A DNA stretch of 39,205 nucleotides from Pararcticibacter amylolyticus (GTDB lineage Bacteria > Bacteroidota > Bacteroidia > Sphingobacteriales > Sphingobacteriaceae). A program made the position numbers and the translations under genes. The notes under the pieces are model-generated. The model saw only the letters and a program-made list of their open reading frames with translations, had not been told where the DNA came from and made no database searches. The stretch lies in NCBI RefSeq assembly GCF_003130405.1, contig NZ_QEAS01000007.1:253757-292961 (forward strand). Reading direction: 5' to 3'. Within the stretch, counting starts at the first letter, position 1. Every line of letters begins with the position of its first letter. Positions 23,535-32,216 of this stretch are shown here, in pieces.

Positions 23535-24064
23535 TCACGGGGGGCTAACTTCCGGTTCAATCAACCTGGTATGTATCCTGCATTCAACAGATGTTTTCTC
23601 TAAAATCCTGAACACTGGACAGAAGATAAGGTTCAGGGAATTGTGTCAAAGTGAAGGGTTGTAGTATTGTTAATTGTGATTTTTTCTGTATAAAATTAAG
23701 CATACCAGTCGTTCAACAAAATGATTTGTATCATAAAATGGAATTTAGACGGATGTTTTAAGTTCTTAAAAAAATAAAAATATTTAAAACAATTGCGGAT
23801 TTTGTTGTTTTAGGTATTAGGAAACAAAAAAGGGTCGGATAGTGATCCGACCCTACATCTACCTATGAAAAACATACCCTTTGGGAGGGTTATAATTCTT
23901 AAGACAAAAAATAAGCCATTGTTGTTCGTTTTGTTAGCCGGTTGTAACACTGTATCTTAGCTTTTTAGATAAAAATTATTCTTGGTAATTTGGGAATAAA
24001 AATCCCCCTTTTGGGTAAATAAGTTCACACCGCAGTGGTGGTTTTTCAGCATATCTGAATGTGT
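23535..24064. other. 530-bp gene-free stretch containing a duplicated structured element
   Basis: No convincing protein gene is seen. Contents are a weak inverted repeat CCTGAAC/GTTCAGG (23607-23613 with 23631-23637) with no T-tract, an AT-rich part around 23690-23820, and the structured repeat at 23831-23890. A 31-codon frame starting inside the repeat (23865-23960, beginning MKNIPFGRV and ending in a hydrophobic LLFVLLAGC stretch) is open but unproven. The flanking genes converge on it. Confidence 0.7.
23831..23890 (-). repeat. Structured repeat element, copy 1 (candidate small RNA)
   Basis: This 60-nt unit recurs at 31762-31820. It has a 10-bp hairpin, AGGGTCGGAT / ATCCGACCCT (23831-23840 with 23845-23854, 4-nt loop), then a 22-nt linker and a second 5-bp hairpin ACCCT / AGGGT (23876-23880 with 23886-23890). 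Positions 23851-23890 are identical to copy 2. On the minus strand the large hairpin is followed by six T residues, exactly like an intrinsic terminator. That makes a minus-strand RNA entering from the small hairpin the simplest reading. On the plus strand the linker contains an ATG that opens a short frame starting MKNIPFGRV. Confidence 0.7.
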
Positions 24065-24364
24065 TTACTTCTGTTGCTTTATAAGATTTTCAAGCGCTTT
24101 AAGATGAAGCTTGAACGCATCCCGGCCTTTATCCGATGCAGCGTAGCTTGTGTTGGGTTTGCGTCCAAGAAAAGTCTTGGTCACAGTGATATATTCTTCT
24201 TTTTCCAGGGCCTTTAAGTGCGAAGCGAGGTTGCCATCCGTTACTTTCAGCAGATCCTTCAGTGAATTAAAATCATAGCTGTCATTGGCAACAAGCACGC
24301 TCATAATCTGAAGCCTGATGCGGTTCTCAAATGCTTTATCAAAATGTTCTAACGATAATTTCAC
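24065..24364 (-). CDS. Winged-helix transcriptional regulator
   Basis: The 99-residue product is a minimal winged-helix DNA-binding protein (HTH_34/ArsR-like). Residues 10-70 form the domain: FDKAFENRIRLQIMSVLVANDSYDFNSLKDLLKVTDGNLASHLKALEKEEYITVTKTFLGRKPNTSYAASDKGRDAFKLHL, with recognition helix DGNLASHLKALE and a basic wing. There is no ligand domain and no cysteine pair for metal. Its start overlaps the stop of the upstream membrane protein gene by 4 nt, a two-gene arrangement common in Bacteroidota. Autoregulation of the pair is likely by analogy but not shown. Confidence 0.87.
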   Translation of the reverse strand: MKLSLEHFDKAFENRIRLQIMSVLVANDSYDFNSLKDLLKVTDGNLASHLKALEKEEYITVTKTFLGRKPNTSYAASDKGRDAFKLHLKALENLIKQQK

Positions 24365-24981
24365 CTGTCGTATTTAAAGTGCATAACAGAACCGTAGAGT
24401 ATATGCAGCAGTCCAAAACCGATGGTCCAGAATATCAAGCCGTAGCCGGGCATAAGTGCGGCCAGCAAACCCAATATAATCTCACATATCCCCAGCCATT
24501 TTACATCCGGATATGTATAGTGACTTCCGGATACCAGTGCAAGCCCGTAAAATAAAAGACAGGCCGGCGCAATTATCCCGTAATATCCACGATACAGAAG
24601 GATAAGGATAAACAGCCCCCCGGCAGCAAGAGGAATCAGAAGGCTCAATAGGAGCTTCCTGCTGACAGGGTTCCATACGGTTTCGCCTTTTTTTCTGGCA
24701 TTTCTCACGGTGAGCAATATTCCCGTGCCAATTGAAAAGACCAATACAGTTACTGCTACCATAAACAAGCGGAAAATAATTGAATATTCATCAATATAAT
24801 ACTCACGGTATGTGAGTCCGCTCGCTTCATAGTAAACTATTCTGTAGCCTGTATAAGCACCCAGAAGGGCATAGATCCCTGCCATCACCCCGGATAATCC
24901 GCTTAGCGAAATGAACTTGGCCGAACGTTCCATAAGGCTCCGGATGGAACTAAGTTCCGAGTAAATATCTTTTTCTTTCAT
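24361..24981 (-). CDS. Integral membrane protein coupled to a winged-helix regulator
   Basis: The 206-residue product starts with a soluble helix (MKEKDIYSELSSIRSLMERSAKFIS). About five to six hydrophobic segments follow: LSGVMAGIYALLGAYTGY, FRLFMVAVTVLVFSIGTGILL, LLLSLLIPLAAGGLFILILL, IIAPACLLFYGLALVSG, and two at the C-terminus. Such proteins commonly precede a small winged-helix gene in this phylum, but their function is unknown. A 5-bp inverted repeat CTTTG-TTTAC-CAAAG (24991-25005), 9 nt before the start, could be the regulator's operator. Confidence 0.8.
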   Translation of the reverse strand: MKEKDIYSELSSIRSLMERSAKFISLSGLSGVMAGIYALLGAYTGYRIVYYEASGLTYREYYIDEYSIIFRLFMVAVTVLVFSIGTGILLTVRNARKKGETVWNPVSRKLLLSLLIPLAAGGLFILILLYRGYYGIIAPACLLFYGLALVSGSHYTYPDVKWLGICEIILGLLAALMPGYGLIFWTIGFGLLHILYGSVMHFKYDR

Positions 24982-25182
24982 TTAAAAGAACTTTGTTTAC
25001 CAAAGGAAGATATTTTGTGAAAACTATGCAAGAGTAAATACTTTTTTTCATCCTCTTTTCGCAAGATAACAGAACGCACCAGATGTCGGACATAGACGGA
25101 ATAGACGACTGAGATCTGAAAAGAACAGGAGGCGGCAGCAATCACCCCATTGAAACTGCCGCTCTGCCTGTTCAGGACAACA

Positions 25183-25599
25183 TTAATGTCGCCCTCTTCC
25201 TCTATGTGTGTGTGGTTTTTTCCATTTACCCGGTCCGTGATGACCTCTTTCCCCATGATGGCCGGGGCCGGCATGGTACCTGCTGCGGTAATAGTCGTGG
25301 CGTAAATAGGGTCTCTCTTCGTGAACCTGTATGTGACGCACATTATAAACATTATAACTGCGGTAACCAGGAAGGCGGCGGTTAGATACCCATTGGCCGC
25401 GGTCCCGGTAATAATATATCTTTTGAGGAACGTAATAATAAGCCTCAATATCGGGTAAATAATAATAGCTTACAGGCACTGGGGCCGGAACTACATATAC
25501 TGGCCGGCCGACATTTACATCAACACGAACTTGTGCTTTGCTCTCTGCTACAGAACATACTGCAAGAATTATTGAACTATAAAATATGACCTTCTTCAT
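25183..25599 (-). CDS. Secreted His/Tyr-rich protein, function unknown
   Basis: The 138-residue product has a signal peptide (MKKVIFYSSIILAVCSVAESKAQ) with cleavage expected after KAQ. The mature part is rich in Tyr, Pro and Val (VYVVPAPVPVSYYYLPDIEAYYYVPQKIYYYRDRGQW). It ends in a histidine-, glycine- and arginine-rich tail (HAGPGHHGERGHHGPGKWKKPHTHRGRGRH) that could bind metal ions. Similar short proteins occur in Bacteroidota without known function. An overlapping frame on the same strand (24978-25448) lacks a signal peptide and family features and was judged a shadow. The gene seems monocistronic. Confidence 0.75.
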   Translation of the reverse strand: MKKVIFYSSIILAVCSVAESKAQVRVDVNVGRPVYVVPAPVPVSYYYLPDIEAYYYVPQKIYYYRDRGQWVSNRRLPGYRSYNVYNVRHIQVHEERPYLRHDYYRSRYHAGPGHHGERGHHGPGKWKKPHTHRGRGRH

Positions 25600-25768
25600 A
25601 ATGTTATATCTTTTTATTCAAAGAACATTATGGATCATGAAAATAAAATGAAATTCCGGAAGTTTTTTCTTTTTCTTGTGTAGTTGCCTGAAAATGAGTT
25701 TTTTAAATGTAGGGTCGCTTCCCTGGTTCCCGCTTTGATACTCAAACTTAGAACACTATAGGCAGCGT

Positions 25769-26617
25769 TCATCCAATAAATGAATCACTGTTTTCTGTTA
25801 AATAGTGCAGCCAGTCACCGGTAGAATAACGCCACTGCAGCAGGGAGGGGATTTTTCTGCTTTTTACAATTTTCCAGCCTCCTGCGGTGCCTGAAAATTC
25901 GGGAATTGTGAATCCTCCTGTTTGTGCCGCAAGTGTATAAAAATCTTTTCTCGAAGGATGGTCAGGTGCGCATACATTAAAAGTATGACCGAATAGTTTA
26001 TTGGTAATGATCTCTTTGGTAATACCTAAGCAGTCATTGAGATGAACAAGATTTACAGGAGCATCGCCATCCGGAACCTGTTTTTTCCCGGAGAGAAATC
26101 TTCCCGGATGTCTTCCCGGCCCCACTAAACCAGCGAACCGGAGAATGGTCGTGTGAAAATCTGACTCCTTTTTCAGGAGATTCTCAGCTTCAAGCAAAGC
26201 CTTTCCCGACGAGGTTTCCGGAAGGGGCGTGGTGTCTTCGTCTACTTCTGCGTTTTGATCCCCATAAATACTGATGGAACTAATGAACAGCACCTCTTTT
26301 ACCGGTGACTTCAGGATTCTCTTAATCAGGTTCCTGATCTTCTGAACATATTCTGACGCATCACCTCCTTTCACACCCGGTGGAAAACTGACCAGCAAAA
26401 CCTCGCATTCGAAGAAGTCATCCTGAGCATTTATTTCATGCTGGCTGACCTCTGCCAGGTAGGGATGTATTCCTTGTCCGGATAAACGTTCCATTTTGTG
26501 GATACTTCTGGTTGATCCGTTTACCCTGTAACCCAGGGAGGATAGCAAATGCCCTGCCGGTAATCCATACCATCCGCAGCCAAGGATACTGATAGTGGTT
26601 GCCTCTTTATTCTTCAT
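25769..26617 (-). CDS. NAD(P)-binding epimerase/dehydratase-like protein (YeeZ type)
   Basis: The 282-residue product from the ATG at 26617 (MKNKEATTISILGCGWYGLPAGHLLSSLGYRVNGSTRS) is an atypical short-chain dehydrogenase/reductase of the YeeZ kind. It has the nucleotide-binding GCGWYGLPAG near residue 13, VLFISSISIYGD at about 113-124 carrying the Ser and Tyr of a YxxxK-like site, and LRFAGLVGPGRHPGRFLSGK. The expected catalytic lysine is not obvious (SIYGDQNAE), so activity may be weak or absent. The substrate is unknown. It lies downstream of pirin but is separated from it by a terminator hairpin at 26643-26663. Confidence 0.82.
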   Translation of the reverse strand: MKNKEATTISILGCGWYGLPAGHLLSSLGYRVNGSTRSIHKMERLSGQGIHPYLAEVSQHEINAQDDFFECEVLLVSFPPGVKGGDASEYVQKIRNLIKRILKSPVKEVLFISSISIYGDQNAEVDEDTTPLPETSSGKALLEAENLLKKESDFHTTILRFAGLVGPGRHPGRFLSGKKQVPDGDAPVNLVHLNDCLGITKEIITNKLFGHTFNVCAPDHPSRKDFYTLAAQTGGFTIPEFSGTAGGWKIVKSRKIPSLLQWRYSTGDWLHYLTENSDSFIG

Positions 26618-26642
26618 AATGCTCTGCAAAACTGCAAAAAAA

Positions 26643-26663
26643 TAGCCGGTACGAGACCGGCTA
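26643..26663. terminator. Bidirectional-looking hairpin after the pirin gene
   Basis: TAGCCGGT and ACCGGCTA (8 bp, 5-nt loop ACGAG) are flanked by A/T runs on both sides. On the minus strand, in the direction of the pirin gene that stops at 26684, the stem is followed by TTTTTTT, so it should terminate pirin transcription. Confidence 0.85.
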
Positions 26664-26683
26664 AAAAGAAATTCCAGGTTCTG

Positions 26684-27406
26684 TTAAAGTCTTACTGTCA
26701 TCGGGACGTCCATCAGCAGGAACTCTGCTTCGGTGTCTGCGGTGATATCCAGTTTATCTGTTTCCCATATTCCTATTCCATCCCGGGCAGACAATGAATG
26801 GCCGTTGATGCTGACATTTCCGCTCAGAATAAAAGCGTATACACCGTTATCCTGGTCTTTGATTGTGTACTCTGCTTTTACGCCTGCATCAAAATGGCCA
26901 ATATGAAACCAGGCATTCTGATGGATCCAGACTCCCTCATCATCGGCAGAAGGAGAGAGGATCTGCTGAAGTTTATTATGTCTGTCTGCCGGATTGAGGC
27001 TGATCTGATCATACCTGGGAGTTACGTCCCTTTTGTTCGGAAATACCCAGATTTGCAGAAATTTCACCAGTTGATCGTTGTTCTTATTGTATTCGCTGTG
27101 ATAGATGCCTGTACCGGCACTCATTACCTGGATATCTCCTTTTTTTATTACCGCGACGTTACCCATGCTATCTTCGTGCTGAAGGTCTCCTTCAAGCGGA
27201 ATAGAGATGATTTCCATGTTGTCATGCGGATGGCGGCCAAAGCCCTGCTTTGCAGCAACAGTGTCGTCATTAAGTACACGAAGGGCTCCGAAGTGCACGC
27301 GGGAAGGATCGTAGTAGCCGCTGAAGCTGAAGGTATGATAGCTGTTAAGCCAGCCGTGATCCGCTTTTCCCCGTGTATCCGCTTTGTGAATTACTGTTTG
27401 TGCCAT
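26684..27406 (-). CDS. Pirin family protein (probable quercetinase-type cupin)
   Basis: Pirins are bicupin iron proteins; bacterial members often have quercetin 2,3-dioxygenase activity or regulate metabolism. The 240-residue product from the ATG at 27406 (MAQTVIHKADTRG) has NSYHTFSFSGYYDPSRVHFGALRVLNDDTV. The metal site is visible as H59 and H61 in GRHPHDNMEIIS and H103 and E105 in IYHSEYN, matching the four ligands known from human pirin. The C-terminal cupin half contains NGVYAFILSGNVSING. An exact -7 box at 27429-27436 supports this start; an ORF extension to 27460 was rejected. The divergently spaced Crp/Fnr gene next to it (same strand) may regulate it. Confidence 0.93.
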   Translation of the reverse strand: MAQTVIHKADTRGKADHGWLNSYHTFSFSGYYDPSRVHFGALRVLNDDTVAAKQGFGRHPHDNMEIISIPLEGDLQHEDSMGNVAVIKKGDIQVMSAGTGIYHSEYNKNNDQLVKFLQIWVFPNKRDVTPRYDQISLNPADRHNKLQQILSPSADDEGVWIHQNAWFHIGHFDAGVKAEYTIKDQDNGVYAFILSGNVSINGHSLSARDGIGIWETDKLDITADTEAEFLLMDVPMTVRL

Positions 27407-27428
27407 GATCTTTTTGTTTTTGTTTATA

Positions 27429-27436
27429 CAAAAGTA
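27429..27436 (-). promoter_or_regulatory. -7 box of the pirin promoter
   Basis: On the minus strand TACTTTTG is an exact TAnnTTTG match, 22 nt before the pirin ATG at 27406. It lies between pirin and the Crp/Fnr-type gene stop at 27497, so pirin has its own promoter. Confidence 0.6.
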
Positions 27437-27496
27437 GGTGGTATGGCAGCCCCATTTCATAATGTAGGTTAAGAAAAGGCGGGGTAAAGCAGATCG

Positions 27497-28087
27497 CTAT
27501 CTTTTCTTCAGAAGTCCCTTTTTCATTTTGCTCAGGAACTCCGGTGTAATGCCGAGGTATGAGGCGATTTGTTTCTGGGGAAGGGTCTGTATCAGCATGG
27601 GATATTTTTTACAGAAGTTGAGATACCGTTCTTCGGCTGTAAAACTCAGACTTTCTGTCAACCTTTGGTAAGTGCTCACCAGTGAATTCTCGGTGATCAC
27701 CCGGAAGAAGTGCTCAAACTTGGGAACCTTCGTACAGAGTATTTCCTGATTAACTTTTGATAATTGCAGAATGTCGGTGTCTTCGAGCGCCTGTATATTC
27801 ATCACTCCGGGTTTTTGAGTGATCATGCTGTACATATCACCTATCCACCATCCTGGAGGGGCAAAGTTCAGAACATGTTCAAATCCATTTTTATCCAGTG
27901 TAAACCCCCTCAGGCATCCCTTATTTACAAATGAGGAATGTTTACAGATCATTCCTTCCTTTAGAATGAACTGTCGTTTCTTGACTTTACCGGCTTGCAG
28001 CAGGTTTACAAAATAATCTTGTTCGTCCCCGGTCAGGTGTATATGCTTTCCGATGTGTTCAAGGATAAGAGTAACTTCAGTATTCAT
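27497..28087 (-). CDS. Crp/Fnr family transcriptional regulator
   Basis: The 196-residue product from the ATG at 28087 (MNTEVTLILEHIGKHIHLTGDEQDYFVNLLQ) has an N-terminal cyclic-nucleotide-binding-like beta-roll (residues about 20-120). A dimer helix and a C-terminal helix-turn-helix follow (LPQKQIASYLGITPEFLSKMKKGLLKKR). There is no N-terminal cysteine cluster, so it is not an FNR-type oxygen sensor, and the cAMP-binding Arg-Ser motif is not evident; the ligand is therefore unknown. A frame extension to 28192 overlaps the upstream small gene and was rejected. A perfect 12-bp inverted repeat 3 nt upstream of the start overlaps a near-consensus promoter. Confidence 0.9.
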   Translation of the reverse strand: MNTEVTLILEHIGKHIHLTGDEQDYFVNLLQAGKVKKRQFILKEGMICKHSSFVNKGCLRGFTLDKNGFEHVLNFAPPGWWIGDMYSMITQKPGVMNIQALEDTDILQLSKVNQEILCTKVPKFEHFFRVITENSLVSTYQRLTESLSFTAEERYLNFCKKYPMLIQTLPQKQIASYLGITPEFLSKMKKGLLKKR

Positions 28088-28090
28088 GAA

Positions 28091-28122
28091 TATCTGCCTG
28101 CGTATATATCCGCAGGCAGATA
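28091..28122 (-). promoter_or_regulatory. 12-bp perfect inverted repeat at the Crp/Fnr gene start (candidate operator)
   Basis: TATCTGCCTGCG (28091-28102) and CGCAGGCAGATA (28111-28122) are exact inverted repeats separated by 8 nt. The downstream edge is 3 nt before the ATG at 28087. Its upstream end overlaps TATTTTTA (28121-28128, one mismatch to the -7 box), so transcription would start inside the palindrome. This is where an autorepressor would bind; alternatively it forms a hairpin that hides the start codon. Confidence 0.6.
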
Positions 28123-28148
28123 AAAATAGTGAAAATCCGTATATCTGT

Positions 28149-28385
28149 CTAATATTGTGCAGATGTGAACGTTCCCAGCTCTTTACAGTCATATCCGGCA
28201 GAATGCAGTGTGCTTTCTACTTTCCTGGGGTTCAGGGCATGATCCGCTTCAATCCTCAGAATAAATTCATCATCAAGAAGATCAAAGTTCCACTTAAAAA
28301 TTTCCCTGAGAGTGTGAAGATAAGGGCGAACGGATTCCACATGCTGCCTGGTGCTCACATTTGTCTTAAATATTAATATGTCCAT
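28149..28385 (-). CDS. Small HMA-like fold protein lacking the CxxC motif
   Basis: The 78-residue product reads like a heavy-metal-associated ferredoxin-fold protein: MDILIFKTNVSTRQHVESVRPYLHTLREIFKWNFDLLDDEFILRIEADHALNPRKVESTLHSAGYDCKEL. Two beta-alpha-beta units can be followed, and AGYDCKEL resembles the end of HMA domains. The metal-binding CxxC is missing; its place after the first strand is TNVSTR. Similar proteins are common in Bacteroidota with no known function. It lies upstream of the Crp/Fnr gene on the same strand with a 61-nt gap. Confidence 0.78.
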   Translation of the reverse strand: MDILIFKTNVSTRQHVESVRPYLHTLREIFKWNFDLLDDEFILRIEADHALNPRKVESTLHSAGYDCKELGTFTSAQY

Positions 28386-28416
28386 AGCTTTCGGAATTAA
28401 ATGATTATATACAGAC

Positions 28417-28821
28417 TTATTTGTTAGACTCGTCTGGTTCTGTTTTGTTAACGTTTTCCTGATTTTTATAGAAAGAATGACGGAAATTATCTGAAGGCGA
28501 ATGCCAGCAGTCCATTCTGCGGTACATCTCTTCTTTAAATTTCTCTCTTTCCTCGGCAGTCATGTTTCTCATCTTTTTTCGCATCTCCCTCTTCCACCAG
28601 AATGGGCGCCCTCCGCCCGGCCCCTTTCCGCCAAATCCGAAAAGGATTTTTGCCAGAACAAATATTCCCAGAGCCTGCCAGAACGTGATGGTACCGGCGT
28701 GTATCGTGCCAGGCAGGATACTGTTCCATAAATACATTATTACGAATCCAAGGGCTGTAAATGCAGCAGCCGCAATTAAAATACCCAGCAGGACTTTTCC
28801 TGCATTAAATCGTTTGTTCAT
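28417..28821 (-). CDS. Small membrane protein paired with an ECF sigma factor
   Basis: The 134-residue product from the ATG at 28821 (MNKRFNAGKVLLGILIAAAAFTALGFVIMYLWNSILP) has two hydrophobic segments (about residues 9-32 and 46-64). A Gly-rich turn (GFGGKGPGGGRPFWW) and a basic, charged cytoplasmic helix follow (KREMRKKMRNMTAEEREKFKEEMYRRMDCW). Proteins of this layout routinely follow an ECF sigma gene in Bacteroidota. A sigma-controlling role is plausible from context, but no anti-sigma domain is recognisable. It begins 2 nt after the sigma gene stop, so the two are coupled. Confidence 0.78.
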   Translation of the reverse strand: MNKRFNAGKVLLGILIAAAAFTALGFVIMYLWNSILPGTIHAGTITFWQALGIFVLAKILFGFGGKGPGGGRPFWWKREMRKKMRNMTAEEREKFKEEMYRRMDCWHSPSDNFRHSFYKNQENVNKTEPDESNK

Positions 28822-28823
28822 AA

Positions 28824-29369
28824 TCAATAAATTAATATCTCATCTCTAAGTACTCTGAGCCGGTTCCGGAGATGCAGTACGGCATATCTTTTCCGCGTAA
28901 TCAGGGTATTCGTTTTTTCTCCGGTAAGTTCGGCGATATCCGCAAAGGAGAGTCCCTCCAGTTCGTGCCACAGGAATACTTGCCGCTGTTCCGGGGGTAG
29001 TTCTTCCAGCGCATCGAAGAACTGTTTCCAGAAAATGGACCGCAGGTATTCTGTTTCGGGAGTATTGCTGTCTGTCATCAGAAATTCTTTCAGGTCAGTT
29101 TCGGCTTCGCTGTCATCCTCTTCATCTACCAGCATCTCCGATTTCTTTTTGTGTTTGTCGATGATCCGGTTTCTTGCAACTTTGAAGAGCCACGCGCCGG
29201 TTTGCTCTATCGGGCCGGCGTTGACCACCGAACTGAATTGTGTCCAGACATCCTGAAGAATATCCTCTGCATCAGCATCGCTTTTTACTCTTCTGCGAAT
29301 GAAATTCATCAGGCTTCGGCCATACTCCTTTATGGTTTGTACAATATGGCTTTCGTTTGCTGATGTCAT
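28824..29369 (-). CDS. ECF-type RNA polymerase sigma factor
   Basis: The 181-residue product from the ATG at 29369 is a sigma-70 family group 4 (ECF) factor. Region 2 covers about residues 15-85 with YGRSLMNFIRRRVKSDADAEDILQDVWTQF and TGAWLFKVARNRIIDKHKKK (core-binding and -10 recognition). An acidic linker (LVDEEDDSEAETDLKEF) follows. Region 4 is LPPEQRQVFLWHELEGLSFADIAELTGEKTNTLITRKRYAVLHLRNRL, with the -35 recognition helix. A TTG at 29384 could add five residues. It is followed after 2 nt by the small membrane protein. No FecR-type anti-sigma gene or SusC receptor is nearby, so this is not a typical FecI system. Confidence 0.93.
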   Translation of the reverse strand: MTSANESHIVQTIKEYGRSLMNFIRRRVKSDADAEDILQDVWTQFSSVVNAGPIEQTGAWLFKVARNRIIDKHKKKSEMLVDEEDDSEAETDLKEFLMTDSNTPETEYLRSIFWKQFFDALEELPPEQRQVFLWHELEGLSFADIAELTGEKTNTLITRKRYAVLHLRNRLRVLRDEILIY

Positions 29370-29550
29370 TGCCGCGGAGTTCAATTTGTTTGTTTTTCTA
29401 TGCAGACGAACTGCACGGAGAAATATTTTAAAGAAAAATAAAAATTATTGATCAGATGTGAATCTTCTCGTTGCAAAGAAAGACGGCGGCATGACAATGG
29501 TATGTCAGCAGAGATAAGAAAGAGATAAGAAAAGGAAATTGCGTAAACGG

Positions 29551-29573
29551 AGGAAGGGGTAACGCCCCTTCCT
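29551..29573. terminator. Weak hairpin after the small lipoprotein gene
   Basis: AGGAAGGGG / CCCCTTCCT forms a perfect 9-bp stem with a 5-nt loop, about 10 nt past the lipoprotein stop at 29583. No T-run follows on the minus strand, so it may be an RNA-stabilising hairpin or a weak terminator. Confidence 0.45.
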
Positions 29574-29582
29574 GATAAGAGA

Positions 29583-29792
29583 TTATCTTGCAGCAGATGA
29601 GTCAGTGCCGCTGCTTGTGTCAGGAGAATCTTTCTGAGAGGTGATGTCATACGATGAAGTGTCATTCCTGATTGAATCATGGACCGCATCAAGCGAGTCG
29701 GATACTTTGTCACCTGTTTTGTTAGAAGTACAGGAGGCTAGCATGACAGCACATACAATAGCTAATATTCCTGATTTTAAGTTGTTTTTCAT
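29583..29792 (-). CDS. Small lipoprotein, hypothetical
   Basis: The 69-residue product from the ATG at 29792 begins MKNNLKSGILAIVCAVMLASC, a lipoprotein signal with lipobox LASC. The mature part is short, acidic and Ser/Thr/Asp-rich (TSNKTGDKVSDSLDAVHDSIRNDTSSYD...). An ATG further upstream would add an unlikely charged leader, so the lipoprotein start is preferred. It is transcribed toward the ECF sigma gene, 213 nt away. It resembles the 23271 lipoprotein in composition but not in sequence. No family is recognised. Confidence 0.65.
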   Translation of the reverse strand: MKNNLKSGILAIVCAVMLASCTSNKTGDKVSDSLDAVHDSIRNDTSSYDITSQKDSPDTSSGTDSSAAR

Positions 29793-30105
29793 GGGCTTTC
29801 TGTGTTTAGTAAACGCATCAGTATCTTTTTTTAACATGTGAATGCCACGAATGTTCTGGCGCATTCAGTCTGGTCTCTTTACATGACAAAAAATCACGAA
29901 AACGATACGGATAGGTAGGTTGTCGTCCTCTCAATGTCAGAGATGTTTAAATAAGCCAAAAATTTCAAAACTTCTTTTAAATGAAATATTTATTAACTGA
30001 TCTGTGCGGATTTTTTCCTGTTGGATAAGTGTGTTGGGAAAAGAATACAGATCTGGCATGTTCCTTGTTAGACTGAACTTAGTTTTTTGTACAAACTTAA
30101 TTGAA
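29793..30105. other. 313-bp intergenic region
   Basis: This region lies between the divergent lipoprotein and beta-barrel genes. It is AT-rich toward 29980. I see no exact TAnnTTTG box, hairpin or convincing short gene in it; promoters for both flanking genes should be here. Confidence 0.6.
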
Positions 30106-30633
30106 ATGACTATGAAAACGACAATTAAACTATTGACATCTGCTTGTGCTATAGCTCTGATGCTGATAACGACGCAAAGTAAGGCCCAGGATTCGAAAGC
30201 CTGGAGGTTGGGAATTTCCGCTAATCCTGGGGTAGCAATCGATGATGATTGGCACGGATTTGTTTTGGGTGGCGACGTAAGATTACAGAAAGATTTTACA
30301 GGTCCGCTTTCCGGTATGTTAACCACCGGCTTTACGCACTTTTTTTTGAAGGACGAGTATAAGGATATACCTGGCGCTGAAGGATACAATGTTATTCCGG
30401 TAAAAGTCGGTCTTAAAGGCTTCCTTACGAGAAACTTTTATCTCTCAGGCGAACTTGGAGCCGGTTTTTCAACAAACGAAGGAGCTGAAACTTCATTCGT
30501 ATGGTCGCCTGCTTTGGGCTGGGCGTTTTCGAATGGACTGGATGTTGGTGTAAAATATGAAGATTTTGCCAAGACCGGTTATCCGCAACAGATCGCTCTG
30601 CGTGTAGCCTACGGCTTTAATCTGAGCAAATAG
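30106..30633 (+). CDS. Predicted outer-membrane beta-barrel protein
   Basis: The 175-residue product from the ATG at 30106 (or 30112) begins with a signal peptide (MTMKTTIKLLTSACAIALMLITTQSKAQ). The mature part is strand-rich: WRLGISANPGVAIDD, FVLGGDVRLQKDF, NVIPVKVGLKGFLTRNFYLSGELGAGFS, and a final QQIALRVAYGFNLSK whose terminal aromatic strand is typical of outer-membrane barrels. It fits small porin-like/OmpA-barrel (OMP_b-brl) proteins, probably of eight strands. A longer start at 30004 was rejected. A strong bidirectional terminator follows. The role is unknown. Confidence 0.75.
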   Translation: MTMKTTIKLLTSACAIALMLITTQSKAQDSKAWRLGISANPGVAIDDDWHGFVLGGDVRLQKDFTGPLSGMLTTGFTHFFLKDEYKDIPGAEGYNVIPVKVGLKGFLTRNFYLSGELGAGFSTNEGAETSFVWSPALGWAFSNGLDVGVKYEDFAKTGYPQQIALRVAYGFNLSK

Positions 30634-30644
30634 TATTTTTTTAC

Positions 30645-30692
30645 TTATAACAAAAAGGAGGATGCAGGATTGTATCCTCCTTTTTGTTATAA
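30645..30692. terminator. Strong bidirectional terminator
   Basis: TTATAACAAAAAGGAGGAT (30645-30663) and its exact 19-nt inverse (30674-30692) flank a 10-nt loop. The GC-rich core GGAGGAT/ATCCTCC followed by TTTTTG makes an intrinsic terminator for the outer-membrane gene. The glycosyltransferase promoter begins only 10 nt later. Confidence 0.9.
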
Positions 30693-30701
30693 AGAATATT
30701 T

Positions 30702-30709
30702 TACTTTTG
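30702..30709 (+). promoter_or_regulatory. -7 box of the glycosyltransferase gene, close to the start codon
   Basis: TACTTTTG is an exact TAnnTTTG match with only TGT between it and the ATG at 30713, predicting a leaderless mRNA. TTTTTG at 30681-30686, inside the terminator's right arm, is the only upstream TTTG and is about 15 nt away. Confidence 0.6.
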
Positions 30710-30712
30710 TGT

Positions 30713-31759
30713 ATGAAAATCCTTTATGCCATACAGGGCACGGGCAACGGTCATTTGAGCAGAGCTATGGATATCGTTCCATGCCTCAGTCGCAAAGGCG
30801 AAGTTGACGTTCTGGTAAGTGGTATTCAGGGAGACCTTCCTTTGCCGTTCCCGATAAAATATAAATTGACAGGCCTTAGTTTTATCTTCGGGAAGTCCGG
30901 AGGGGTGGATCTCTGGAAAACCTTTGTTAAAAGCAGCTTAAAACGACTTATAAAAGAAATCAGGGCTCTTCCTGTGGATGAGTATGACCTGGTCATCACT
31001 GACTTCGAGCCTGTATCCGCATGGGCCTGTTATATGAAGAATAAGCCTGTCGTCGCCTTAAGTCATCAGTCAGCAGTGCTGGCTCCAGGGACTCCAAAGC
31101 CTGAACACCTCGATATGCTGGGGAGGCTTATTCTGAGAAATTATGCCCCTTCCAGCCTTCAGTATGGTTTTCATTTTGAATCCTATAATGAAAATATCTT
31201 CACCCCGGTTATCCGTAAGCAGGTCAGGCAACGGATTGTTTCAGATAGAGGCCACTACACGGTTTACTTACCTGCCTATGACGATAAAAGTTTGCTCAAG
31301 AGGTTGTCTGCATTTCCGGAAGTGAAATGGGAGGTGTTTTCGAAACACAACAAGCGGGCCTTTAAGTATAAAAACATTGAGATACGCCCTGTCAATAATG
31401 AGCAGTTTATCAGCAGCATGTCGAGTAGTTCGGGGGTATTGTGCGGTGCTGGTTTCGAGACTCCCGCAGAGGCGCTGTTTATGGGGAAGAAATTGATGGT
31501 GGTGCCCATGAAAAATCAATATGAACAGCATTTAAATGCTGCCGCCCTCGAATCAATGGGAGTGCCGGTCATTAAAAATTTAAAACACCGTCACGATTCG
31601 GAGATCCGGGAATGGATTAACAATGGAACTGGAATAACAGTAAATTATCCTGATATTACCCAGGGTATTGTCGACCGGGTGATAGATGAATATATGGATC
31701 TGGGCACTGCAGAGTGGAATGTAGAGAATCAGTGCGACTCATTTTTAAAAAGTAAATAA
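30713..31759 (+). CDS. MJ1255/VC2487-type glycosyltransferase
   Basis: The 348-residue product from the ATG at 30713 (MKILYAIQGTGNGHLSRAMD) resembles the TIGR00661 (MJ1255/VC2487) group, with a GT-B fold like MurG and UGT enzymes. The glycine-rich N-terminal loop GTGNGHLSRA sits at residues 9-18. DLVITDFEPVSAWACY forms the middle of the acceptor domain. The donor-domain motif SSSSGVLCGAGFETPAEALFMGKKLMVVPMKNQYEQHLNAAALESMGV matches the family's nucleotide-sugar site. The real substrates are unknown. An ORF extension to 30662 would run through the terminator and was rejected. The stop lies 2 nt before the copy 2 repeat. Confidence 0.88.
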   Translation: MKILYAIQGTGNGHLSRAMDIVPCLSRKGEVDVLVSGIQGDLPLPFPIKYKLTGLSFIFGKSGGVDLWKTFVKSSLKRLIKEIRALPVDEYDLVITDFEPVSAWACYMKNKPVVALSHQSAVLAPGTPKPEHLDMLGRLILRNYAPSSLQYGFHFESYNENIFTPVIRKQVRQRIVSDRGHYTVYLPAYDDKSLLKRLSAFPEVKWEVFSKHNKRAFKYKNIEIRPVNNEQFISSMSSSSGVLCGAGFETPAEALFMGKKLMVVPMKNQYEQHLNAAALESMGVPVIKNLKHRHDSEIREWINNGTGITVNYPDITQGIVDRVIDEYMDLGTAEWNVENQCDSFLKSK

Positions 31760-31761
31760 GA

Positions 31762-31820
31762 AGGGCCGGATAAGATCCGGCCCTACATCTACCTATGAAA
31801 AACATACCCTTTGGGAGGGT
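31762..31820 (-). repeat. Structured repeat element, copy 2 (candidate small RNA)
   Basis: This is the second copy of the 23831-23890 unit. The hairpin arms are AGGGCCGGAT / ATCCGGCCCT (31762-31771 with 31775-31784), so the T-A pair at the fifth stem position of copy 1 is replaced by C-G on both sides. The following 36 nt plus the last four stem bases (31781-31820) are identical to copy 1, including the ACCCT/AGGGT hairpin. The loop is 3 nt instead of 4. On the minus strand the sequence after the hairpin is TTCTTATTT, a poorer T-tract than in copy 1, and it runs into the stop codon of the glycosyltransferase. The plus-strand frame starting at 31795 (MKNIPFGRV...) has 19 codons. Confidence 0.7.
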
Positions 31821-32216
31821 CCTTAAAGATAGGAAGAAAAAATTAATTTGCTAAACAAAAAGTATCTTTTGTAAAAACAAGATTATGTCTGGGGGGATAA
31901 TCTGACAAATATATCTGAAGTTTTTTGCCCCTTCGGAAAATATTATCTAACTTGCGGCACTGTTTATGCCCATTATGAGCCTTTATCTGGGTTAGTCAGT
32001 GCCAAAAACAAATAAAAAGAGCAATTAGTTAAGATGGGAAGCCATAGCTTTACACATTAAAAAAATATTCATCTATATGTATCGTTTATAGAACAGGGGA
32101 TTGTGAATAATATATTTCGACCTGACACAATTTATTGAAACAATCAATTTACTTAATAGTATAATAGTATTAAAACAAGAGATGGTCACAACCATCGGGA
32201 GATACACACAAACATA
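31821..32216. other. Remainder of the 457-bp gene-free region before the RRM gene
   Basis: This AT-rich stretch follows repeat copy 2 and precedes the RRM gene. The only clear structure is a perfect 6-bp hairpin GATGGT-CACA-ACCATC at 32181-32196, 20 nt before the RRM ATG. An AT-rich tandem stretch around 32150-32175 (repeated ATAGTAT) lies just upstream. No exact -7 box for the RRM gene was found, and no protein-coding frame is convincing. Confidence 0.6.

Follow-up and report, generated by a model that had tools for sequence, protein, structure and literature searches.

Two repeat units on one contig

The window analysed here, a 39,205-nucleotide stretch of the Pararcticibacter amylolyticus genome (Sphingobacteriaceae, Bacteroidota; contig NZ_QEAS01000007.1, positions 253,757 to 292,961), carries two short repeat units, both read here as candidate small RNA (sRNA) genes of the minus strand. 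Direct sequence comparison found 40 nt identical between 23851-23890 (copy 1) and 31781-31820 (copy 2); the 21 repeated 20-mers of the whole window all derive from this pair, and no 20-mer of the window recurs in inverted orientation. On the plus strand, the large hairpin of copy 1 pairs 23831-23840 with 23845-23854 over 10 bp around an AGTG loop, that of copy 2 pairs 31762-31771 with 31775-31784, again over 10 bp, around an AAG loop, and a single compensated change, T-A to C-G, sets the two apart. A 5-bp ACCCT/AGGGT hairpin is present in both units, at 23876-23890 and 31806-31820. A sequence-only reading of the window, which had proposed a covarying structured element on the basis of this core and these hairpins, was borne out on all of them, as on the six T residues that it placed after the large hairpin of copy 1 on the minus strand (six plus-strand A residues, 23826-23831, the last within the stem). 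The linker between the stems, which it described as a fixed 22 nt, measures 21 nt, or 22 nt when the large stem is counted without its outer A-T pair.

In minus-strand orientation, both units run from a short 5' hairpin (ACCCU/AGGGU) through the linker AUGUUUUUCAUAGGUAGAUGU to a 10-bp, terminator-like, GC-rich hairpin and a T-rich tail, the conserved ~20-nt part of the linker being GUUUUUCAUAGGUAGAUGUAG. Both minus-strand RNAs fold into two hairpins, with z-scores of -2.8 (copy 1) and -2.4 (copy 2). For copy 1, the fold, a covariance-model match (G000:C117:277573-277656) and the alignment of copies point to a predicted transcript of ~65 nt at 23826-23892, with a probable 5' end near 23892. Its 5' hairpin (23876-23890, loop CCCAA) and terminator hairpin (23831-23854, 10 bp, loop CACU, with the T-run at 23826-23831) were delineated by folding and covariation, and the intervening linker (23855-23873, GUUUUUCAUAGGUAGAUGU), the proposed seed, by alignment and sequence conservation. 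Motif search placed a sigma-54-like promoter motif, TGGCTT-N5-TTGTC, at 23903-23918 on the same strand. Copy 2 would be transcribed from 31760-31822 on the minus strand (predicted ends; fold and covariance-model match G000:C117:285504-285586), with folded 5' hairpin at 31806-31820, a linker or proposed seed assigned by sequence identity at 31785-31803, and a folded terminator-like hairpin (10 bp, loop CUU) at 31762-31784. Its motif search gave a -7-like box, TATCTTTA, at 31824-31831, also on the minus strand, which has housekeeping-type spacing and agrees with TAnnTTTG at 7 of 8 positions, failing the strict pattern.

Copy 1 is flanked by a small open reading frame (ORF) without Pfam match on one side and by a winged-helix regulator (PF13601) on the other. 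Copy 2 converges on a glycosyltransferase gene (PF13528; ORF 30662-31759), and the low end of its hairpin begins 3 nt beyond the stop codon of that gene. Since the tail of copy 2, an interrupted T-rich TTCTTATTTACTTTTT, reaches into the 3' end of this ORF, copy 2 is not wholly intergenic, and the earlier description of both copies as intergenic holds for copy 1 only.

Copies, structure and promoters of the family

Further copies, which the sequence-only reading had called for, are numerous. The P. amylolyticus genome (G000; 6.31 Mb in 153 contigs) holds seven linker copies with both hairpins: the two of the window, one on the same contig (C117:241.4 kb), three in a tandem array at ~120 bp (C73:241.4-241.7 kb) and one at C137:193.7 kb. 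A first covariance model, built from these seven copies and searched against 60 genomes (E <= 0.01), matched 33 of them, including 31 of 37 genomes of the same family with 1-12 copies each (the highest number, 12, in G035) and, weakly, 2 of 23 outside it. A second model, built from 109 distinct copies and searched against 296 genomes across the phylum, matched 10, of which 8 lie within Sphingobacteriaceae; both searches used strict filters, so that weak matches were lost. A range beyond the family was rejected: the two outside matches of the second search (E 0.0035 and 0.0096) and the two of the first (E ~0.006) were treated as chance. The exact 18-nt linker occurs in at least 119 stretches of named genomes, and among the 80 of these matches listed by title most come from Pedobacter, Mucilaginibacter, Sphingobacterium, Arcticibacter and related genera. 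The collected set, after removal by eye of loci that are not sRNA genes, comprises 186 rows representing 171 distinct 140-nt contexts (15 places were included twice). One flavoprotein gene (PF02441), which we take to be UbiX, recurs as the downstream neighbour in 69 of the 171 contexts, and this locus looks like the ancestral one of the sRNA family.

Covariation in homologues was judged by shuffles and slid-partner controls, and is strong in both stems. In a model-fitted alignment of 109 distinct copies, two-sided changes affect 15 of 16 pairs (6/6 in helix 1, 9/10 in helix 2), with 319 two-sided cells against 66 in shuffles (0/500 shuffles reaching the observed value), 96.5% of cells paired, and a covariation score of 0.580 against 0.237 when shuffled (0/500), which falls to 0.05-0.13 when partners are slid by 1-3 columns. 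When 69 copies (<80% identity) were aligned independently of the model, RNAalifold recovered the terminator only, with two-sided changes in 10/10 pairs and 123 two-sided cells, compared with 28 on average in shuffles. Support for the 5' stem comes from the fitted alignment and from a MAFFT alignment of the seven own-genome copies, in which 8 of 16 pairs, from both helices, show two-sided changes. An arm-swap control gave 10.5 vs 7.6 bp for the 3' stem and only 6.4 vs 5.6 bp for the 5' stem, because GGGC is common to many 5' stems. In the 109-copy alignment, conservation is highest in the single-stranded linker rather than in the palindrome; the linker core is unchanged in 159 of 162 distinct copies while both stems vary, a figure biased by the fact that most copies were retrieved by that string.

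Upstream motifs were counted in 167 distinct copies, after removal of short upstream parts and repeats, with patterns picked after inspecting the same sequences. TAnnTTTG, the housekeeping -7 box of Bacteroidota, precedes 100 copies (shuffled mean 11.4, most 22; reversed 15), and 65 of these matches end at one same position. GTAAC-N14-19-[CA]GTA, which resembles extracytoplasmic function (ECF) promoters, precedes 10 (shuffled 0.36, most 3; reversed 1); it is matched by two copies of the tandem array, and nearly so by the remaining one and by the ortholog L082. TGG[CT][AT][CT]-N5-TTG precedes 32 (shuffled 0.29, most 2; reversed 0) and, as a motif, is of the -24/-12 (sigma-54-like) type, a promoter type reported in Flavobacterium (PMC9723704). 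The last class includes copy 1 of the window and, in two further genomes of the genus, its syntenic orthologs L083 and L084. The own genome encodes rpoN (PF04552, 192.5 bits), so that motif and rpoN are both present for copy 1; copies outside this class lack the motif. Each of the three classes has a syntenic ortholog within the genus, and altogether 138 of the 167 copies carry a promoter-like motif at the expected distance, which is consistent with the earlier proposal of a minus-strand RNA ending at the large hairpin as its terminator, at a predicted ~65 nt.

Rfam 15 gave no match at gathering threshold over the 39,205 bases of the window on both strands, as had been expected of a new family; membership of an Rfam family was rejected, and sub-threshold matches were kept as leads only. 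Judged from sequence and covariation, the small RNA family is very likely real, present in most sampled Sphingobacteriaceae and absent from Rfam.

The linker as a candidate seed

Taken as its reverse complement, the linker reads ACAUCUACCUAUGAAAAAC, which could be a start region, and it is antisense to start regions of the form ACAUCUACCU-AUG-AAAAA. By eye, 11 of the loci listed among the at least 119 exact 18-nt matches are not sRNA genes, and in 7 of these 11 the exact 18-nt antisense lies at the first codon of an ORF of at least 182 codons: two fasciclin-domain orthologs (one of them scanned, PF02469), two GH76 lipoprotein orthologs, L163, L204 and L128, the latter from an Alistipes metagenome-assembled genome, outside Sphingobacteriaceae.

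A 16-nt pattern, TCTACCTATGAAAAAD, was found at 50 places in 43 of 251 family genomes, against 7 and 7 places for two patterns permuted in their upstream part. These places were sorted by eye, after which their 46 loci were searched with the covariance model, giving 17 sRNA copies, 1 ambiguous place, 13 start regions, 7 sites before a terminator, 4 in one RNA and 8 others; the control patterns gave 3 and 6 start regions. The sRNA copies are 13 loci at model E < 0.001 (L271 among them by model, 51.7 bits) and four places from the genome search (G000 twice, G003:C339, G009:C34), and L287 is weak by model (27.3 bits, E 0.004), plain linker matches reaching 22-27 bits. The ambiguous place, L267 (G247:C1:2461599), opens a 46-codon ORF and has a weak sRNA match on its other strand (33.5 bits, E 0.0002). 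At L246, L283 and L244 the match also opens ORFs of 47-70 codons, but these places, being a pre-terminator site or sRNA copies, were not counted among the start regions. A looser pattern, ATGNNNAACATACCCT with 2 mismatches, was abandoned as near background (171 places vs 125 for its reversal).

Pairing in the 13 start regions tends to extend past the searched pattern: in the bases next upstream of it, relative to a background of 1326 own-genome ATG regions, CA (CATCTACCT) occurs in 9/13 against 5.7% (P 3e-9) and ACA (ACATCTACCT) in 6/13 against 2.0% (P 1e-7). The result, from which L267 is already left out, also holds when the four GH76 orthologs are collapsed into one (CA 6/10, P 6e-6; ACA 4/10, P 3e-5). 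Ten of the 14 start-region proteins (sorting by eye, L267 counted) were scanned with Pfam, which returned GH76 twice, in two genera, an outer-membrane beta-barrel protein, a glucose/sorbosone dehydrogenase-like protein, a branching-enzyme glycosyltransferase, a histidine-specific methyltransferase and an ECF sigma factor; three had no match over the cut-off. Among 30 GH76 ortholog loci read out of 32 matches, complementarity persists in close orthologs (full in L326, L327 and L329, altered in L328, L330 and L331) and has faded in the other 24, and is therefore not conserved genus-wide.

This arrangement recalls FopS (RF04319), an sRNA with 14 paralogs in Bacteroides thetaiotaomicron, a single-stranded 5' seed, a terminator and sigma-ABfr promoters, which blocks susC translation at the start codon (PMC11697453). 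Like FopS, the new family is multicopy (7 in the own genome, 12 in G035); FopS genes share the promoter box TAnnTTTG with many of its copies, and both have a single-stranded stretch, the seed in FopS and a proposed seed here, that reads GUUUUUCAU(A/G)G..UAGAU, is followed by an intrinsic terminator, and holds GUUUUUCAUAG..UAGAU. With the R1 seed of FopS, GUGUUUUUCAU.., the new family has UGUUUUUCAU.G and UAGAU in common, and the middle differs. RF04319 copies, which read for example TATATTTGCACTGTG-UUUUUCAU(A/G)GUAUUAGAUUUAAGG, begin their seed as the new family does; their stretch from seed to terminator is longer, and no 5' hairpin was seen in them by eye. PMC11697453 likewise describes a single-stranded 5' stretch and no 5' hairpin, unlike the covarying 5' hairpin found here. 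The RF04319 model scores copy 1 of the window at 17.7 bits and two copies of L009 at 20.9 and 18.4, against a gathering threshold of 56, and at cut-off it matches 4 of 149 genomes of the class and none of the 5 Sphingobacteriaceae genomes listed there. By score the new family is not a member of FopS; in layout, as far as sequence can tell, it resembles it, so that the earlier statement that the family was unrecognised stands by database score and not for its architecture and seed. A common origin is possible, somewhat short of probable, and since many genes begin with AUGAAAAA, the seeds may also have converged.

Other known RNAs came less close. The alphaproteobacterial suhB/mmgR (RF00519), among the best sub-threshold matches at 23.9 bits (23.7 for a copy in L009; gathering 41), shares a short 5' hairpin with pyrimidine-rich loop, a linker and a terminator, but its linker sequence is unlike. 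The Vibrio Qrr sRNAs, gammaproteobacterial, Hfq-dependent and driven by sigma-54 promoters, can be likened by description alone, with several paralogs and a common pairing region; unlike in Qrr, a sigma-54-like motif precedes only 32/167 copies of the new family. Rfp18 of Flavobacterium, a conserved Bacteroidota sRNA thought to tune secreted proteins, is set apart by description alone, having at least three stem-loops and pairing via the third (PMC9723704). Four linker strings were not found in the open literature searched, a prior description in subscription papers being possible, and the titles listed, in a scope largely outside subscription papers, gave no description of such sRNAs or of sigma-driven sRNAs from these genera.

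We consider it likely, from these sequence comparisons, that the window carries two minus-strand members of a multicopy, trans-acting, FopS-like sRNA family of Sphingobacteriaceae that pairs with start codons. By sequence and covariation, a promoter-like motif ends a few to ~20 bases before the short 5' hairpin of each gene, and the predicted RNA exposes the conserved ~20-nt linker as single strand and ends in an intrinsic terminator. In the proposed mechanism, the linker is the seed: GUUUUUCAU would pair with AUGAAAAAC at the start of the coding sequence and AGGUAGAUGU with the bases immediately upstream, and this pairing would, by analogy with FopS in Bacteroides, block translation initiation of a few selected, largely exported proteins. 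The paralogs carry different promoter motifs, presumably used by different sigma factors, so that several signals could feed one seed. Seed-based regulation at start codons is, taken by itself, probable.

Several results weigh against this interpretation. The excess of start regions over controls is moderate in number, and a single gene, through its orthologs, accounts for four of the 13. Across 904 ORFs and 1326 ATG regions from 1.24 Mb of the own genome, pairing of the seed with start regions does not exceed that of permuted seeds, 131, 127, 111, 99 and 46 of 150 permutations reaching the observed count at -12, -14, -16, -18 and -20 kcal/mol; broad targeting there was rejected, and targets, if real, are therefore few. 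Neither does the own genome hold a near-full match at a start codon: three places other than sRNA genes match with at most 3 mismatches, any ORF that they open has 27 codons at most, and the reversed control pattern likewise gives three. The first model found no match in six of the 37 Sphingobacteriaceae genomes, and 29 of the 167 copies lack all three promoter patterns where these would be expected, including copy 2 of the window, which nevertheless carries TATCTTTA at the usual position. Lastly, RNAalifold missed the 5' hairpin on the unfitted MAFFT alignment of 69 copies, probably because loop lengths differ.

Some of these points would also suit a family that is real but whose linker is mainly a protein-binding site, for instance for an RRM protein such as RbpB, the RNA acting via that protein. 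The near-invariant linker between variable stems (with the retrieval bias noted above) and the lack of a broad start-region pairing excess in the own genome would be expected under it. The RRM protein RbpB binds FopS and counteracts its repression (PMC11697453). An RRM gene (PF00076; 32217-32636, plus strand) lies ~400 bp from copy 2. This neighbour was rejected as a linked partner, as it adjoins copy 2 only: tblastn over the loci, mostly with 1.5-4 kb of flank, found no homolog beside other copies. The long antisense matches at first codons of long ORFs, extending past the searched pattern, also speak for start-codon pairing, and we regard a mainly protein-directed role as rather unlikely.

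Readings that dispense with an RNA function fare worse. If the units were cis-acting terminators or gene 3' ends, alike through a common way of ending transcription, the position of the copy 2 hairpin 3 nt past a converging stop codon and the overlap with ORFs of at least 60 codons in 11/186 rows would be natural; but the neighbouring genes lie on either strand (over the 186 rows, upstream 87 plus and 94 minus, downstream 131 plus and 50 minus), and promoter-like motifs stand at the expected distance in 138/167 copies, which makes this very unlikely. Least likely is a mobile palindromic repeat spread by a transposase, such as a repetitive extragenic palindromic (REP) element, although the units are multicopy, mostly intergenic and once arrayed in tandem, with a REP-like, GTAG-like foot next to the palindrome. 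The Y1 transposase of REP and IS200-type elements (Y1_Tnp, PF01797) has no match in the own genome (97.7% complete), while 5 of 14 control genomes are positive; this one test for a mobile element was negative. Promoter-like motifs and terminator lie at fixed distances, the flavoprotein gene recurs downstream in 69/171 contexts, and conservation peaks in the linker. The reading based on REP elements and their associated tyrosine transposases was rejected on the transposase, promoter and covariation results.

Few Bacteroidota small RNAs are understood, and classical sRNA chaperones are lacking in the phylum (PMC11697453). The sRNA family favoured here would provide a concrete case for start-codon pairing outside gut species, with a fixed FopS-like seed under several promoter types, and its covariance model can be used to annotate genomes in which these sRNA genes are unlisted.

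Antisense sites near terminators and variant copies

Complementarity to the linker also occurs away from start codons. In the own genome (L048/L243, G000:C54:25508-25528), a 16-nt antisense match lies between the stop codon of a 50-codon ORF and a terminator-like hairpin with a T-run; L246 (G003:C160:8318-8333) shows the same placement after a small ORF, and five more genomes a similar one, by eye, after other genes (L249, L251, L252, L260, L280), three of them with related genes. In Mucilaginibacter-type genomes (L255, L266, L269, L273), a repeat of ~200 nt, seemingly non-coding, bears the antisense linker and GAATTCTCAG..CCCAAGCTGAG, with a terminator-like end in some. Rfam found nothing at cut-off in these four loci, bar a tRNA at another position of L273; at low threshold, the one locus scanned gave only an implausible plant microRNA match. 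The CA extension is present in 3/7 pre-terminator sites, a weaker result, and in 4/4 members of the repeated RNA, which are related copies. Both kinds of site would fit RNA sponges, in few cases. More tentatively, and on balance doubtfully, FopS and the new family could be two branches of an old Bacteroidota lineage of anti-start-codon RNAs, duplicated in Sphingobacteriaceae under three sigma types and countered there by sponges.

The exact 18-nt match also occurs in three viral contigs, opening a 127-codon ORF in antisense in L241 and adjoining a terminator-like hairpin in L240. Among the sRNA copies themselves, a Mucilaginibacter subgroup (L130, L138, L144, L205, L220 and similar) is marked by the conserved terminator loop CUGCGAGAG and by promoters that are mostly sigma-54-like, with four copies within one 8-kb stretch in L220. 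A divergent type in genus g17 (L282-L286, L288; 30.8-42.1 bits with model R2) has a linker that in most of these loci reads UUUUUCAUAGGUAGAUU and a terminator stem that is built differently.

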